Below, piece by piece: positions 42,316-47,112 of a stretch of DNA of 64,000 nt. The notes below the pieces were generated by a model. The model did not search any database and had not been told where the DNA came from. It worked only from the letters and a program-made list of their open reading frames with translations. The position numbers and the translations under genes are program-made. Position 1 is the first letter of the stretch, and every line of letters begins with the position of its first letter. Origin of the DNA: Rhodovulum tesquicola (GTDB lineage Bacteria > Pseudomonadota > Alphaproteobacteria > Rhodobacterales > Rhodobacteraceae); assembly GCF_024128855.1 (NCBI RefSeq), contig NZ_JAMYDV010000002.1, forward strand, positions 124,001 through 188,000. The letters are read 5' to 3'.

Positions 42316-44006
42316 CCCGCCGCCCGGTGCTTTTCGACCTCGATGGCGAGGGGGACAAGCCCGGCGCGGGGTCGGAGGGGCGGCGCGATCAGGCCGCGGC
42401 AGCGGAGCGGGCCGAGCGGGAACGGGCGGAACGGGAGGCGCTGGCCGAGGCAAGGGCGGAACAGGCCCGGATCGAGCGGGAGCGCGCGGAGGCGGAAAGG
42501 CTGGAGCGGGAGGACGCCGAGCGGGACCGGCTGGAGCGTGCGCGGTTGGATCGGGAGCGGATCGAGCAGGAACGGGCCGAAGCCGCGCGGCTGGAACGCG
42601 CCCGGGTGCAGGCCGAGCAGGCCGAACGCGAGCGTGTCGAGCGCGAGAAGGCCGAGCGGGCGCGTGCGGAGGCCGAGCGGTTGGAACGTGAGCGCGTCGA
42701 GCGCGAACGGGCCGACGCCGAAAGGGCCGAGCGAGAGCGTGTCGAGCGCGAGAAGGCCGAGCGGGCGCGTGCGGAAGCAGAACGGTTGGAACGTGAACGC
42801 GTCGAACGCGAACAGGCCGAGCGGGCGCGCCGGGAGCGCGCGCTAGCCGAGGCCGAGAGGGCCGAACGCGAGCGGGCCGAGCGGGAACGGGCAGAGGCCG
42901 AGCGGCTGGAACGCGCGCGGGATGAACAGGAACGGCAGGAGCGGGAACGGTTGGAACAGGAGCGGGAGCGGGACGCAAGGGTGGGCGCGGCGGGCCGCGA
43001 GGTCCGCAGGGCCAGGGCGCCGCTTCTGTTCGAGGCGGACGAGGCCGAGGCGCGGCTGTCGCCTGCCTCCGCGCCGCCGGTGCCGGAGCCCGATGCGTTG
43101 CCCGAGGGGCGTGCGATGCAGGCGGTGGTGGCGCTGGCCGCGCGGCCGCCCTCGCGGCTGGGGCGGTTCTTCTGGGCCTCGCTCTCGGCGCTGATCGGCT
43201 TTGCCGTCTCGCTGGCGGCATGGGATTTCGTGACCGGGCTGGTCGCACGCAACCCGGTTCTGGGGGGCATCGCGGTCGTGCTGGCGGGCAGCGTTCTGCT
43301 GGCGCTTCTGCTGATCGGGCTGCGCGAGCTGGCGGCGTTCTCGCGGCTGGCACGGCTTGACCGGCTGCATGCCGAGACCGAGGCGGCGCTGGCGGCGCAT
43401 GACCTTGGGGCCGCGCGGGCGGTGCTGGACAGGCTGATGGCGCTTTATGCCCGCCGCGAGGATACGAGTTGGGGCCGCGAGCGGCTGAAGGAGCGGCGGG
43501 ACGATATCCTGGATGCCGACGGGCTGCTGGGACTGGCCGAGCGCGAATTGCTGGCCCCGCTCGACGCCGCCGCCACGCGCGAGATCGAGGCGGCCGCCCG
43601 GACCGTGGCCGCGGTGACCGCCATCGTGCCGCTGGCGTTGGCCGATGTCGCGACGGCGATGGTGGCCAATCTGCGCATGATCCGGCGGATTGCCGAGATC
43701 TATGGCGGGCGCGGCGGGGTTCTGGGCTCGATCCGGCTGGGTCGCGCGGTGATGACGCATCTGGTGGCCACGGGGGCGGTGGCGGTGGGCGATGACATGC
43801 TGGGCTCGATTGCGGGCGGCGGCATGCTGTCGCGCGTCTCGCGCCGCTTCGGCGAGGGCGTGGTGAACGGCGCGCTGACCGCGCGGGTCGGTGTCGCCGC
43901 GATGGAGGTCTGCCGCCCGCTGCCCTTCCGCGCGCTCAAGCGCCCCTCGGTCGGGGCATTGGTGAAACGCGCGTTGACCGGGCTGTTCTCGAAATCCGAC
44001 GCTTGA
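42312..44006 (+). CDS. ycjF: TIGR01620/YcjF-family membrane protein with long Glu/Arg helix insertion
   Basis: A 564-residue protein. Residues about 27-225 consist almost only of Glu, Arg and Ala in seven-residue-like units (ERAERERAE, EAERLERERVE), predicted as a very long charged single alpha-helix or coiled coil. Two transmembrane segments follow (about 285-308 and 316-343), then the C-terminal DUF697 domain (about 350-560; RTVAAVTAIVPLALADVATA). Ordinary family members are near 340-360 residues, so the helix accounts for the excess. The DNA shows a 105-bp tandem duplication within it. It is coupled to ycjX by ATGA; the pair probably functions together at the inner membrane. Confidence 0.88.
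   Translation: MTRRPVLFDLDGEGDKPGAGSEGRRDQAAAAERAERERAEREALAEARAEQARIERERAEAERLEREDAERDRLERARLDRERIEQERAEAARLERARVQAEQAERERVEREKAERARAEAERLERERVERERADAERAERERVEREKAERARAEAERLERERVEREQAERARRERALAEAERAERERAERERAEAERLERARDEQERQERERLEQERERDARVGAAGREVRRARAPLLFEADEAEARLSPASAPPVPEPDALPEGRAMQAVVALAARPPSRLGRFFWASLSALIGFAVSLAAWDFVTGLVARNPVLGGIAVVLAGSVLLALLLIGLRELAAFSRLARLDRLHAETEAALAAHDLGAARAVLDRLMALYARREDTSWGRERLKERRDDILDADGLLGLAERELLAPLDAAATREIEAAARTVAAVTAIVPLALADVATAMVANLRMIRRIAEIYGGRGGVLGSIRLGRAVMTHLVATGAVAVGDDMLGSIAGGGMLSRVSRRFGEGVVNGALTARVGVAAMEVCRPLPFRALKRPSVGALVKRALTGLFSKSDA
42630..42815 (+). repeat. 105-bp tandem duplication inside the Glu/Arg helix of the YcjF-type gene
   Basis: The sequence from 42630 recurs from 42735. 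The first 41 bases are identical and the next 40 nearly so, after which the units diverge. The period is 35 codons (five heptads), so the encoded helix keeps its register. It suggests growth of the helix by in-frame duplication. Confidence 0.85.
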
Positions 44007-44013
44007 GCCGCCC

Positions 44014-44042
44014 TTTACGGCCCCGCGCGCCCGGCCTATAAG
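44014..44042 (+). promoter_or_regulatory. Candidate promoter of the ileS leader/ileS unit
   Basis: TTTACG (44014-44019), 17 bases, TATAAG (44037-44042), beginning 8 bp after the ycjF-type stop. Initiation 7-8 bases downstream would fall at about 44050, the A of an ATG that opens the leader reading frame. Confidence 0.6.
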
Positions 44043-44049
44043 CCCGCCC

Positions 44050-44100
44050 ATGTCGTCCGGCCCCATGCGCATCATTCGAATTAGCCGCCCGGCGCTCTGA
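44050..44100 (+). CDS. Candidate isoleucine-rich leader peptide of ileS
   Basis: A 16-codon frame from ATG 44050, with an internal ATG at 44065, ending TGA at 44098-44100. The core is MRIIRISRPAL, with three Ile codons (ATC, ATT, ATT) among the first six of the core. It begins about where transcription should start, so it may be translated leaderless. It ends in the loop of a stem-loop (44088-44115), as expected for ribosome-mediated attenuation by charged tRNA-Ile of the downstream isoleucyl-tRNA synthetase. This is read directly from sequence; the regulatory role is inference, and no strong T-rich terminator is visible before ileS. Confidence 0.6.
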   Translation: MSSGPMRIIRISRPAL

Positions 44101-44115
44101 TCCAGAGCGGCCGGG
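44088..44115 (+). promoter_or_regulatory. Attenuator-like stem-loop between leader peptide and ileS
   Basis: CCCGG-CGCTCTG, loop ATC, CAGAGCG-G-CCGGG: 12 paired bases with one bulged G. A second weaker stem GGCGC/GCGCC follows at 44120-44139, and CGGCGC at 44090-44095 can instead pair with GCGCCG at 44135-44140. Two mutually exclusive folds are therefore possible. Confidence 0.55.
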
Positions 44116-44184
44116 ACAAGGCGCTTGACCCGTCGCGCCGAAGCTTCAACAGATCGCATGACCCGTTTTCCGAGGACCGCCCCC

Positions 44185-47112
44185 ATGTGCGCCGACACGC
44201 CCGACTATCGCGATACCGTCTTCCTGCCCGAAACCGATTTCCCGATGCGCGCGGGCCTGCCCGAACGCGAACCCGCCTGGCTGGACCGCTGGGCGCGGCT
44301 CGGGGTCTATGACCGGCTGCGGGAACGGACGGGGCGGGCGCCCTTCATCCTGCATGACGGCCCGCCCTATGCGAACGGGCATCTGCATATCGGCCACGCG
44401 CTGAACAAGATCCTCAAGGATTTCATCGTGCGGTCGCAGCAGATGATGGGCAAGGATGCGCGCTATGTGCCGGGCTGGGACTGCCACGGCCTGCCGATCG
44501 AATGGAAGATCGAGGAACAGTACCGCGCCAGGGGGCTGGACAAGGACGCGGTTGACGTTGTCGCCTTTCGCCAGGAATGCCGCAAATTCGCCGAAGGCTG
44601 GATCGAGATCCAGCGCGAGGAATTCAAGCGCCTCGGCATCACCGGCAACTGGGCCGATCCCTACCTGACCATGGATTTCCACGCCGAGGCGGTGATCGCG
44701 CAGGAATTCATGACATTCCTGATGAACGGGTCGCTTTACCAGGGCTCGAAGCCGGTGATGTGGTCGCCGGTGGAAAAGACCGCGCTGGCCGAGGCCGAGG
44801 TCGAATATCACGACCACCAGAGCCACACGATCTGGGTGCAGTTTCCGGTCGTTTCGGCCTCTGCCTTCCCCGGGAAGGACGCCTGCATCGACACCGAGCT
44901 TCTCTCGGCCAGGGTGGTGATCTGGACCACCACCCCCTGGACGATCCCGCAGAACCGTGCCGTCTGCTTCGGCCCGGGCATCGCCTATGGCCTCTACCGT
45001 GTCACCGAGGCGCCCGAGGGCAGCACCGCCAAGACCGGTGAAACCGTGATCCTCGCCGACGCGCTGGCTGCCAGCGTCGCCACCGCCGCCAAGGGCGCCA
45101 CGCTGGAACGGGTCCGCGACGTGGCCGCCGATGAACTCGGCGCGTTGACGCTGGCCCACCCCTTCCGCGGCATCGAGGGCGGCAATGGCGAGTGGGATTT
45201 CGACGTGCCCACGCTGCCCGGCGATCATGTCACCGATGACGCCGGCACGGGCTTTGTCCACACCGCGCCCAGCCATGGTGACGACGACTACCAGATCGGC
45301 CTGAAACACGGCCTGCCGATGACCTATAACGTGCTGGAAGACGGCTCGTTCCGGCCTGACCTGCCGATCTTCGGCGGGCAGGCGATCCTGACGCCCGAGG
45401 GCAAGGAAGGTCCGGCGAATGTCTCGGTCATCAAGCAACTGGCCTATGCCGGGGCGCTGCTGGCCAAGGGCAAGCTCAAGCACAGCTACCCCCATAGCTG
45501 GCGTTCCAAGGCGCCGCTGATCTACCGCAACACGCCGCAATGGTTCGCCGCCATCGACCACAGGCTGGATGACGGCATGGGCCAATATGGCGAGACGATC
45601 CGCCAACGCGCGCTGACCTCGATCGACCAGCTGGTGAAATGGACCCCGCAAACGGGCCGCAACCGGCTTTACTCGATGATCGAGGCGCGGCCCGACTGGG
45701 TGCTGTCGCGCCAGCGCGCCTGGGGGGTGCCGCTGACCTGTTTCGTCAAGCGCGGCGCGAAACCCACCGATCCCGATTTCCTGCTGCGCGATCCGGGCGT
45801 CAATGCGCGCATCGTGGCGGCCTTCGAGGCCGAAGGGGCGGATGCCTGGTATGCAGAGGGGGCGAAGGCGCGGTTCCTTGGACCGGACCATGACCCCGAC
45901 GCCTATGATCAGGTCATGGACGTGCTGGATGTGTGGTTCGACAGCGGCTCGACCCATGCCTTCGTGCTGCGCGACCGGGCGGACGGGGCGGCGGACGGGA
46001 TTGCGGATCTGTATCTGGAGGGCACCGACCAGCATCGCGGCTGGTTCCATTCCTCGATGCTTCAGGCCTGCGGCACCATCGGCCGGGCGCCCTATCGCGG
46101 CGTGCTGACCCATGGCTTCACGCTGGACGAGAAGGGCAACAAGATGTCCAAATCGCTCGGCAATACCGTCGCGCCCGAGGATGTCATCAAGCAATATGGC
46201 GCGGATATCCTGCGGCTCTGGGTGGCGCAGTCGGATTATTCGGTGGACCTGCGCATCGGGCCCGAGATCCTGAAGGGCGTGGCCGACAGCTACCGGCGGC
46301 TGCGCAACACGCTGCGCTTCATGCTGGGCAATCTGGCCGGGTTCTCGGAGGCCGAACGGGTCGCGCCAGAGGACATGCCCGAGCTGGAACGCTGGGTGCT
46401 GCACCGTCTGGCCGAGCTCGACCAGCGGGTGCGGCAGGGCTATGACAGCTATGATTTCCAGGGCGTGTTCCAGGCGCTGTTCAACTTCTGCACCGTGGAT
46501 CTGTCGGCCTTCTATTTCGACATCCGCAAGGACGCGCTGTATTGCGATGCGCCCGACAGCATGCGCCGCCGCGCCGCGCGCAGTGTGCTGGATCTGCTGT
46601 TCCACCGGCTGACCACCTGGCTGGCGCCGATCCTCGTCTTCACGATGGAGGATGTGTGGCTTGCGCGCTTTCCGGACGAGGACGGGTCGGTGCATCTGGA
46701 GGACATCCCGGAAACGCCCGCCGCCTGGCGCGATGAGGCGCTGGCGGGGAAATGGGCGGGGGTCCGGCAGGTGCGGCGCGTGGTGACGGCGGCGCTGGAG
46801 ATCCAGCGCCGGGACAAGGTGATCGGCGCGAGCCTGGAGGCCGCGCCGGTGGTGCATGTCGAGGACGCCGCCGTTCTGGCGGCGCTGAAGACGGTCGATT
46901 TCGCCGATCTCTGCATCACCTCGGACATCCTGCTGACCGCCGATCCCAGCCCGAACGAGGCCTTCCGCCTGCCCGAAGTGCCGGGCGTGGGCGTGGTCTT
47001 CGAGAAGGCCGAGGGCGAGAAATGCCAGCGCTGCTGGAAGATCCTGCCCGATGTGGGGGGGCATGCCCATCCGGGGACCTGCGCGCGCTGCAACGCGGCG
47101 TTGGGCGGTTAG
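44185..47112 (+). CDS. ileS: Isoleucyl-tRNA synthetase
   Basis: A 975-residue class I synthetase. The HIGH motif is HLHIGH (about 66-71), KMSKS is intact (about 653-657), the CP1 editing domain contains the GTGFVHTAPSHG signature, and the C-terminal zinc site CQRCWKILPDVGG...CARC is complete. This is the bacterial (ileS1, mupirocin-sensitive) type. The ATG at 44185 has GAGGA nine bases upstream; an ATG at 44158 in frame is possible but has no ribosome site. The 178-bp upstream region holds the leader peptide and stem-loop described separately. A full repeat copy follows the stop. Confidence 0.97.
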   Translation: MCADTPDYRDTVFLPETDFPMRAGLPEREPAWLDRWARLGVYDRLRERTGRAPFILHDGPPYANGHLHIGHALNKILKDFIVRSQQMMGKDARYVPGWDCHGLPIEWKIEEQYRARGLDKDAVDVVAFRQECRKFAEGWIEIQREEFKRLGITGNWADPYLTMDFHAEAVIAQEFMTFLMNGSLYQGSKPVMWSPVEKTALAEAEVEYHDHQSHTIWVQFPVVSASAFPGKDACIDTELLSARVVIWTTTPWTIPQNRAVCFGPGIAYGLYRVTEAPEGSTAKTGETVILADALAASVATAAKGATLERVRDVAADELGALTLAHPFRGIEGGNGEWDFDVPTLPGDHVTDDAGTGFVHTAPSHGDDDYQIGLKHGLPMTYNVLEDGSFRPDLPIFGGQAILTPEGKEGPANVSVIKQLAYAGALLAKGKLKHSYPHSWRSKAPLIYRNTPQWFAAIDHRLDDGMGQYGETIRQRALTSIDQLVKWTPQTGRNRLYSMIEARPDWVLSRQRAWGVPLTCFVKRGAKPTDPDFLLRDPGVNARIVAAFEAEGADAWYAEGAKARFLGPDHDPDAYDQVMDVLDVWFDSGSTHAFVLRDRADGAADGIADLYLEGTDQHRGWFHSSMLQACGTIGRAPYRGVLTHGFTLDEKGNKMSKSLGNTVAPEDVIKQYGADILRLWVAQSDYSVDLRIGPEILKGVADSYRRLRNTLRFMLGNLAGFSEAERVAPEDMPELERWVLHRLAELDQRVRQGYDSYDFQGVFQALFNFCTVDLSAFYFDIRKDALYCDAPDSMRRRAARSVLDLLFHRLTTWLAPILVFTMEDVWLARFPDEDGSVHLEDIPETPAAWRDEALAGKWAGVRQVRRVVTAALEIQRRDKVIGASLEAAPVVHVEDAAVLAALKTVDFADLCITSDILLTADPSPNEAFRLPEVPGVGVVFEKAEGEKCQRCWKILPDVGGHAHPGTCARCNAALGG

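Follow-up and report, generated by a model that had tools for sequence, protein, structure and literature searches.

What is the short isoleucine-containing reading frame that precedes ileS in Rhodovulum tesquicola, and by what means might it act on the gene behind it? The window analysed here is a stretch of 64,000 nucleotides (contig NZ_JAMYDV010000002.1, positions 124,001 to 188,000, forward strand), in which all features discussed below lie on the + strand, and the letters of the region around positions 44,050-44,184 were read directly. The original prediction held that ileS is controlled by tRNA-Ile charging, through attenuation by alternative RNA folds and a leaderless leader peptide.

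Layout and Conservation of the Leader Frame

The frame runs from an ATG at 44050 to a TGA at 44098-44100 (44050..44100; 16 codons plus stop, MSSGPMRIIRISRPAL), is probably leaderless, and contains the Ile codons ATC, ATT and ATT. It is preceded by a -35-like hexamer TTTACG (44014..44019) and a -10-like hexamer TATAAG (44037..44042) with a spacer of 17 nt, and is followed by two predicted hairpins and a Shine-Dalgarno-like GAGGA (44172..44176). The ORF at 44185..47112, which we take to encode the isoleucyl-tRNA synthetase IleS, has an ATG start set by its relatives; the mechanical ORF begins at a TTG at 44125. Coordinates and letters of the predicted frame, its three Ile codons, the boxes and the hairpin were all borne out on reading.

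Conservation was assessed in 110 ileS loci chosen by IleS similarity only, ignoring the motif (30 loci returned from 61 genomes plus the best 80 of 583). They represent closely related bacteria; almost every one that bears a name is labelled Rhodobacterales or Rhodobacteraceae, and we call them all Rhodobacterales hereafter. Of the 110 loci, 107 are distinct. All 110 carry, at most 300 nt upstream of ileS, the sequence CGAATTA, then a spacer of four free nucleotides and a hairpin arm rich in G+C. In each of the 104 distinct loci testable in this respect, the CGA shares its frame with the first ATG downstream of the -10-like box (L024, with no box by pattern, and L043 and L052, with GTG in place of ATG, were left out). 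The ATG-to-CGA distance takes five values (21, 24, 27, 30 and 39 nt), all in frame, so length changes have preserved the frame. Because the same layout recurs in 110/110 loci picked without reference to the motif, and in frame in 104/104, it is more than chance would produce; on this comparison the leader frame upstream of ileS, predicted from a single sequence, is real, and so is a deeply conserved leader-peptide element.

The most conserved part of this element, absent from the original prediction, is the CGAATTA at 44077-44083, made up of a rare Arg codon, an Ile codon and the first base of the next codon. All seven bases are invariant in the 107 distinct loci (100% column identity), the next four show 41-73% identity, and the hairpin arm CCCGG shows 99-100%. 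Both codons are fixed to their wobble bases, and among the ileS codons of these loci CGA accounts for 1.7% of those for Arg and ATT for 9.4% of those for Ile. Ile is also found at codons -1, -2 and -3 relative to CGA in 66, 79 and 57 of the 107 loci, respectively. A short ORF with codons cognate to the regulated gene, as in a leader attenuator, is thus present, with its frame kept in 104/104, its ATT invariant and Ile enriched ahead of it. The expected conservation of Ile codons holds fully for the ATT after CGA (107/107) but not for those upstream, since 10/104 Rhodobacterales leaders have no Ile codon ahead of CGA; many leaders outside this collection, in a sample of 108 genomes, have the single ATT only. 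By sequence comparison, then, having several Ile codons is usual without being required, and the lone ATT after CGA never changes.

At the peptide level nearly all leaders end in R-I-[T/S/I/M]-x-P-A, with P in 106/107 and A in 105/107. Counting CGA as the first codon of this tail, codon 3, directly after Ile, is T, S, I or M in 107/107 and never Lys, Asn or Arg; the same limit holds in 77 of 80 further places with the exact motif, hairpin arm and in-frame ATG that lie outside the first 107 loci (the second set, a few of which come from the window's family; these places were not individually confirmed, and at least one, L134, is a chance match). Such a limit, together with P-A close to the stop, is what one would look for if the nascent peptide itself arrested the ribosome under the influence of a ligand or of a condition distinct from Ile-tRNA charging, much as TnaC arrest responds to tryptophan. 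We consider this unlikely, as the wobble bases of CGA and ATT are fixed too and a peptide alone needs neither, codon 4 is variable, and the CCGGC coding for P-A belongs to the hairpin, so that P-A may be a by-product. Codon usage in the 108-genome collection is similarly restricted: 25 of 27 R-I-x-x-P frames with a hairpin use CGA ATT.

Hairpins at the End of the Leader

The first hairpin (H1, 44088..44115) pairs CCCGGCGCTCTG (44088-44099) with CAGAGCG-G-CCGGG (44103-44115) across the loop ATC, giving 12 pairs and one bulged G. The leader frame ends in this 12-bp hairpin, as predicted, its TGA taking up the final two bases of the stem and the first of the loop. Depending on the script, H1 folds in 103-105 of the 107 Rhodobacterales loci, and in 101 it contains the stop codon. 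With the C of CGA as +1, the first pair of H1 is at +12 in the window; among 105 folds of these loci it falls between +11 and +13 in 99 and at +12 in 74, with a median of 12 pairs; in the second set, where the arm position is fixed by the search pattern, the first pair falls at +11 to +13 in 73/77, with a median of 10 pairs.

A second hairpin (H2, GGCGC/GCGCC, 44120..44139) follows. Covariation was scored on an alignment of 59 of the 107 loci that were picked by eye to include H2 and which therefore favours it. Of the 885 cells of H1 and H2, 96.9% are paired, and both sides have changed in 7 pairs and 23 cells; shuffled alignments matched this covariation in 0/500 cases for four of five measures and in 2/500 for the fifth, and all slid versions scored lower. 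In H2 the exchange is between GGCG/CGCC and GGTG/CACC, in 11 of these 59 by-eye-chosen rows. A pattern search did not detect H2 in 31 of the 101 loci scored, and inspection by eye shows none in, for example, Paracoccus.

The proposed alternative folds depend on a competing pairing of CGGCGC (44090-44095) with GCGCCG (44135-44140). Both segments are present, but within the same 59 loci this pairing has no both-side change in 354 cells and has one pair broken in 11 rows, and we reject it as a competing fold for want of covariation. The predicted stem covariation is therefore seen for H1 and H2 and not for their competitor, and mutually exclusive antiterminator and terminator folds were not found for the proposed pairing.

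A Putative Promoter and Leaderless Start

A loose pattern (TATAN, TAAAC or TTATA) finds a -10-like box in 106 of 107 distinct loci, and at the place equivalent to the -35-like hexamer many relatives read, by eye, CTTTACC or CTGGACC. In the 104 testable loci the ATG lies 11-16 nt after the first T of the -10-like box, at 12 or 13 nt in 85. A strict consensus scan of 43950-44250 gave no sigma-70 promoter, so that the promoter rests on the looser reading and its conservation. Judged by the position of the -10 box, transcription would start at or beside the leader ATG, and the predicted coincidence of start point and ATG is compatible with this expected start, which falls on that ATG or one base from it.

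According to the accessible part of the source, the published ileS start of M. extorquens lies at TAGAAGcgctcca A, 150 nt upstream (PMC9320726). This resembles, with one mismatch, the TAGAAGCGCTCCC-ATG that precedes the leader of L213; the Methylorubrum promoter of that paper, M. extorquens' own sequence, had no match in 111 genomes. An operator DNA site at the motif was also considered. The motif is in frame and at a fixed distance from the hairpin, and its distance from the promoter varies, which makes an operator unlikely.

The Output Step

Classical transcription attenuation would have the position of the leader ribosome select between H1 plus H2 and the CGGCGC/GCGCCG pairing, with a terminator hairpin stopping transcription before ileS. 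A leader with cognate codons, a stop codon inside a hairpin and the presence of both segments speak for it, as do the runs of 4-5 T found no further than 9 nt behind H1 in 9 of the 73 second-set leaders that were folded, so that the output step may differ between lineages. In Rhodobacterales, however, a T-run of at least 4 follows H1 in 0/105 folded loci and H2 in none of 70 scored (at most 3 T), and the both-side changes (0/354 cells for the competing pairing vs 23/885 for H1 and H2) speak against it. The original prediction had already remarked on the lack of a clear T-run; none follows the hairpins in the window, and the strict scan of 43950-44250 returned no terminator. An intrinsic terminator at H1 or H2 was rejected for the first 107 loci on these grounds.

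A switch by sequestration of the Shine-Dalgarno sequence was likewise rejected, since in the 92 of 107 loci that were folded (15 were dropped for want of an SD-like word or start codon that the script could find) access to the ileS ribosome-binding site did not change with the position of the leader ribosome (mean unpaired probability 0.389 vs 0.384). With neither a T-run nor a predicted ribosome-binding-site switch, classical intrinsic-terminator attenuation is unsupported, and the predicted attenuation by fold switching with a terminator, whose pairing does not covary, did not hold up; we regard it as improbable. At the Rfam gathering score only a tRNA was found in the window and eight representative loci gave no match, so that no T-box or other Rfam leader was recognised.

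The stretch ahead of the ileS ribosome-binding site (44141..44171 in the window) is C-rich and G-poor in relatives. Over the 43 nt whose last base lies 12 nt ahead of the ileS ATG, C exceeds G in 106/107 loci (mean 0.405 C and 0.206 G), as compared with 56/107 in a control at -300 to -257 and 14/29 in a control of crude 5-prime regions of the window, one of which belongs to ileS with a misplaced start. This composition is compatible with Rho loading, at which it hints only.

A Candidate Codon-Plus-Hairpin Gate

The reading that we prefer is that a leaderless leader-peptide gene senses charged isoleucine tRNA and tunes ileS, which on the sequence evidence is probably the case. Building on a frame, codons, hairpin and spacing that come from comparison, we infer stalling, isoleucine as the signal and an output step. 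The ribosome would translate to the CGA-AUU core. CGA, decoded through an inosine-A wobble pair, would then occupy the P site and AUU the A site, with H1 sitting exactly at the mRNA entry (+12), where it would hinder A-site tRNA binding, so that decoding of that one Ile codon would become rate-limiting. When Ile-tRNA is scarce the ribosome would stay at the core with H1 folded, and when it is plentiful the ribosome would melt H1 and stop inside it. Upstream Ile codons would add to the gating in Rhodobacterales. As for the output, our preferred guess would be that Rho-dependent termination, acting in the C-rich, G-poor stretch, is relieved, and our second choice would be leader-controlled mRNA decay.

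In the available portions of two reports (PMC7282821, PMC8861025), binding of tRNA to the A site is hindered by stem-loops of 11-12 bp that begin at +12 or +13, counted from the P-site codon, and inosine wobble decoding of CGA is described, in the available text, as stalling yeast ribosomes (PMC6301793); that such stalling carries over from yeast to bacteria we infer by analogy. The tRNA genes found in the window's genome number 39, with Arg anticodons ACG, CCG, CCT and TCT and no TCG, in an incomplete list that also holds no tRNA-Ile, presumably lost with the rRNA operons. With CGA in the P site, AUU is the codon that the geometry singles out, and the leader is followed by the gene for the Ile-tRNA synthetase, so that two independent lines meet. 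Codon gating alone accounts neither for the first A of codon 3 nor for the limit of that codon to T, S, I or M.

Seven invariant bases placed 4 nt before a stem would also suit an RNA signal, in which CGAAUUA by the hairpin is a site for a nuclease, sRNA or protein that ribosome traffic protects or exposes. The RNase E consensus in Salmonella is of the type RN-WUU, which GAAUU fits. RNase E sites in R. sphaeroides are enriched in AU, although the main text of that study, in the part available, does not name ileS (PMC6238624). RNase E would fix neither the C nor the final A, nor would it keep the frame and the Ile codons, and we give this reading little weight. A putative complementarity of CGAAUUA to 16S rRNA (UAAUUCG) would probably be due to chance, and a programmed frameshift at CGAAUUA was set aside on reading, the heptamer not being X XXY YYZ in frame.

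An isoleucine-sensing role is thus likely from the sequences, and the gate formed by codon and hairpin is offered as a specific, testable proposal. The predicted control of ileS by tRNA-Ile charging is supported in so far as an Ile-cognate leader is conserved, and unsupported with regard to its fold-switch route.

Distribution and Other Genes behind the Element

Upstream stretches of ileS were also read in 108 alphaproteobacterial genomes with IleS, collected without regard to the motif and including the window's own. The exact element with an in-frame ATG was found before ileS in 24 of them and was not seen there in the other 84, one of which offered a stretch of only 68 nt, too short for it. 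Three genomes have another seventh base (C with an in-frame ATG in L192 and L266; T and no in-frame ATG in L247). The 107 stretches other than the window's own contain 26 copies of CGAATTA, one in each of 26 genomes; the 23 copies with an arm at +12 all have an in-frame ATG, and the other 3 have none. An A+T-rich genome is among the positives (L297, MKFNKQIIIRIINPTSL). Other lineages carry dissimilar Ile-rich short ORFs before ileS (L193, and L197 about 200 nt before the gene); in L197 (MFKPFRVIFLVKIWIKIHIKR) a hairpin and T-rich sequence come after the ORF, an arrangement resembling a classical attenuator.

Searched across the class in 289 genomes, the pattern CGAATTANNNNCCCGGC gave 73 places in 62 genomes, as compared with 13 places for the reversed pattern. 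Seventy of the 73 were fetched, and 27 of these precede ileS. Another 28 were assigned by reading: 19 lie before an ACT-like protein, 5 before an AAA_33-type kinase, 3 before a protein of about 170 aa and 1 before a YggS-like ORF (L124, recognised by eye and doubtful as a leader). The remaining 15 comprise L141, inside ileS; L134, L177 and L187, in rho; L174; and ten without a convincing leader. The rho matches (SPEANYLPGPDDIY, recognised by eye) are coding coincidences and not leaders.

The ACT-like protein (about 90-145 aa, with a motif around VLELFAKRxLVP) is preceded by the leader element at 19 of the 28 places read, including L123, L131, L143, L145, L155, L162, L163, L166, L183 and L189. 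Its assignment is weak: the best NCBIfam match, acetolactate synthase small subunit, has E 7e-4 in 1 of 12 and the Pfam AHAS-subunit ACT domain E 0.039 in 1 of 12, and a search of solved structures with the ACT-like alignment returned leucine-rich-repeat chains only (best E 0.003). In four genomes (G065, G196, G093 and G247) the element precedes ileS and the ACT-like gene alike. AAA_33-type kinase genes follow the element at L154, L173, L175, L176, L188 and L314, the one protein scanned (L175) matching AAA_33 with E 8e-33, and the protein of about 170 aa follows it at L128, L129 and L130, all of one genus, with no Pfam match for that of L129. Neither the kinase nor the 170-aa protein has an evident tie to isoleucine, which counts against isoleucine sensing.

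A search of 249 genomes across the phylum placed 64 of 74 matches inside the class, where the reversed control gave 2; the 10 outside it, against 17 for the control, are no evidence of the element beyond the class, and by this distribution the family looks alphaproteobacterial. Fifteen of the 16 genomes of the window's family match the pattern, and in the sixteenth, G288, the exact pattern is absent. In the window's own genome the ileS copy is the sole exact match; of four one-mismatch matches that were read, three do not look like leaders, and the fourth (L114, G000:C21:15398-15414) has a strong hairpin and no in-frame ATG. This copy adjoins a tRNA-Thr gene and has a GTG 21 nt before it.

A broader form of the preferred reading, which we hold only tentatively, would be a single-codon tRNA sensor in which an invariant, wobble-read CGA is combined with a stem-loop of 10-12 bp at +12, the cassette being reused for ileS and the ACT-like protein as an isoleucine regulon and working, in Rhodobacterales at least, with neither an intrinsic terminator nor a ribosome-binding-site switch.

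Relation to Known Systems

If true, the proposal would mean that a stem-loop effect known in vitro from frameshift signals serves bacteria as a regulatory sensor, and it would explain the function of a leader with one cognate codon. The signature of CGAATTA, 4 nt and CCCGGC would then mark an isoleucine-linked regulon, including the ACT-like protein, across alphaproteobacterial genomes, and the element would allow the leaderless translation of leader peptides to be tested cleanly. No description of the CGAATTA leader motif was found in the openly accessible literature searched.

A possible counterpart is the ileS leader CDS of Caulobacter crescentus (CCNA_03934) from a ribosome-profiling study, likewise a small CDS before ileS in an alphaproteobacterium; the accessible part of that report gives no mechanism, conserved motif or relatives (PMC4117421). 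The rnTrpL/trpL leader of Sinorhizobium meliloti shares a leaderless leader-peptide ORF whose AUG begins the RNA, but is a tryptophan attenuator, and the geometry of CGA codon and hairpin is undescribed in the available text (PMC10117765). The uORFC-8-2 motif of cysS in Rhodobacterales, as given in the accessible part of its source, is also a cognate-codon leader ORF before an aminoacyl-tRNA synthetase gene; it has two tandem Cys codons in the stem and a U-run terminator, whereas the element described here places a single invariant Ile codon ahead of its stem and lacks a U-run (PMC8632094). Finally, the frameshift stem-loops of dnaX and HIV-1 resemble H1 in their stems of 11-12 bp and in a first base at +12 from the P-site codon, within the available text of both reports (PMC7282821, PMC8861025). 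They differ in acting with a slippery heptamer, which the ileS leader lacks in the right frame, and the use suggested for H1 would be tRNA sensing rather than frameshifting.
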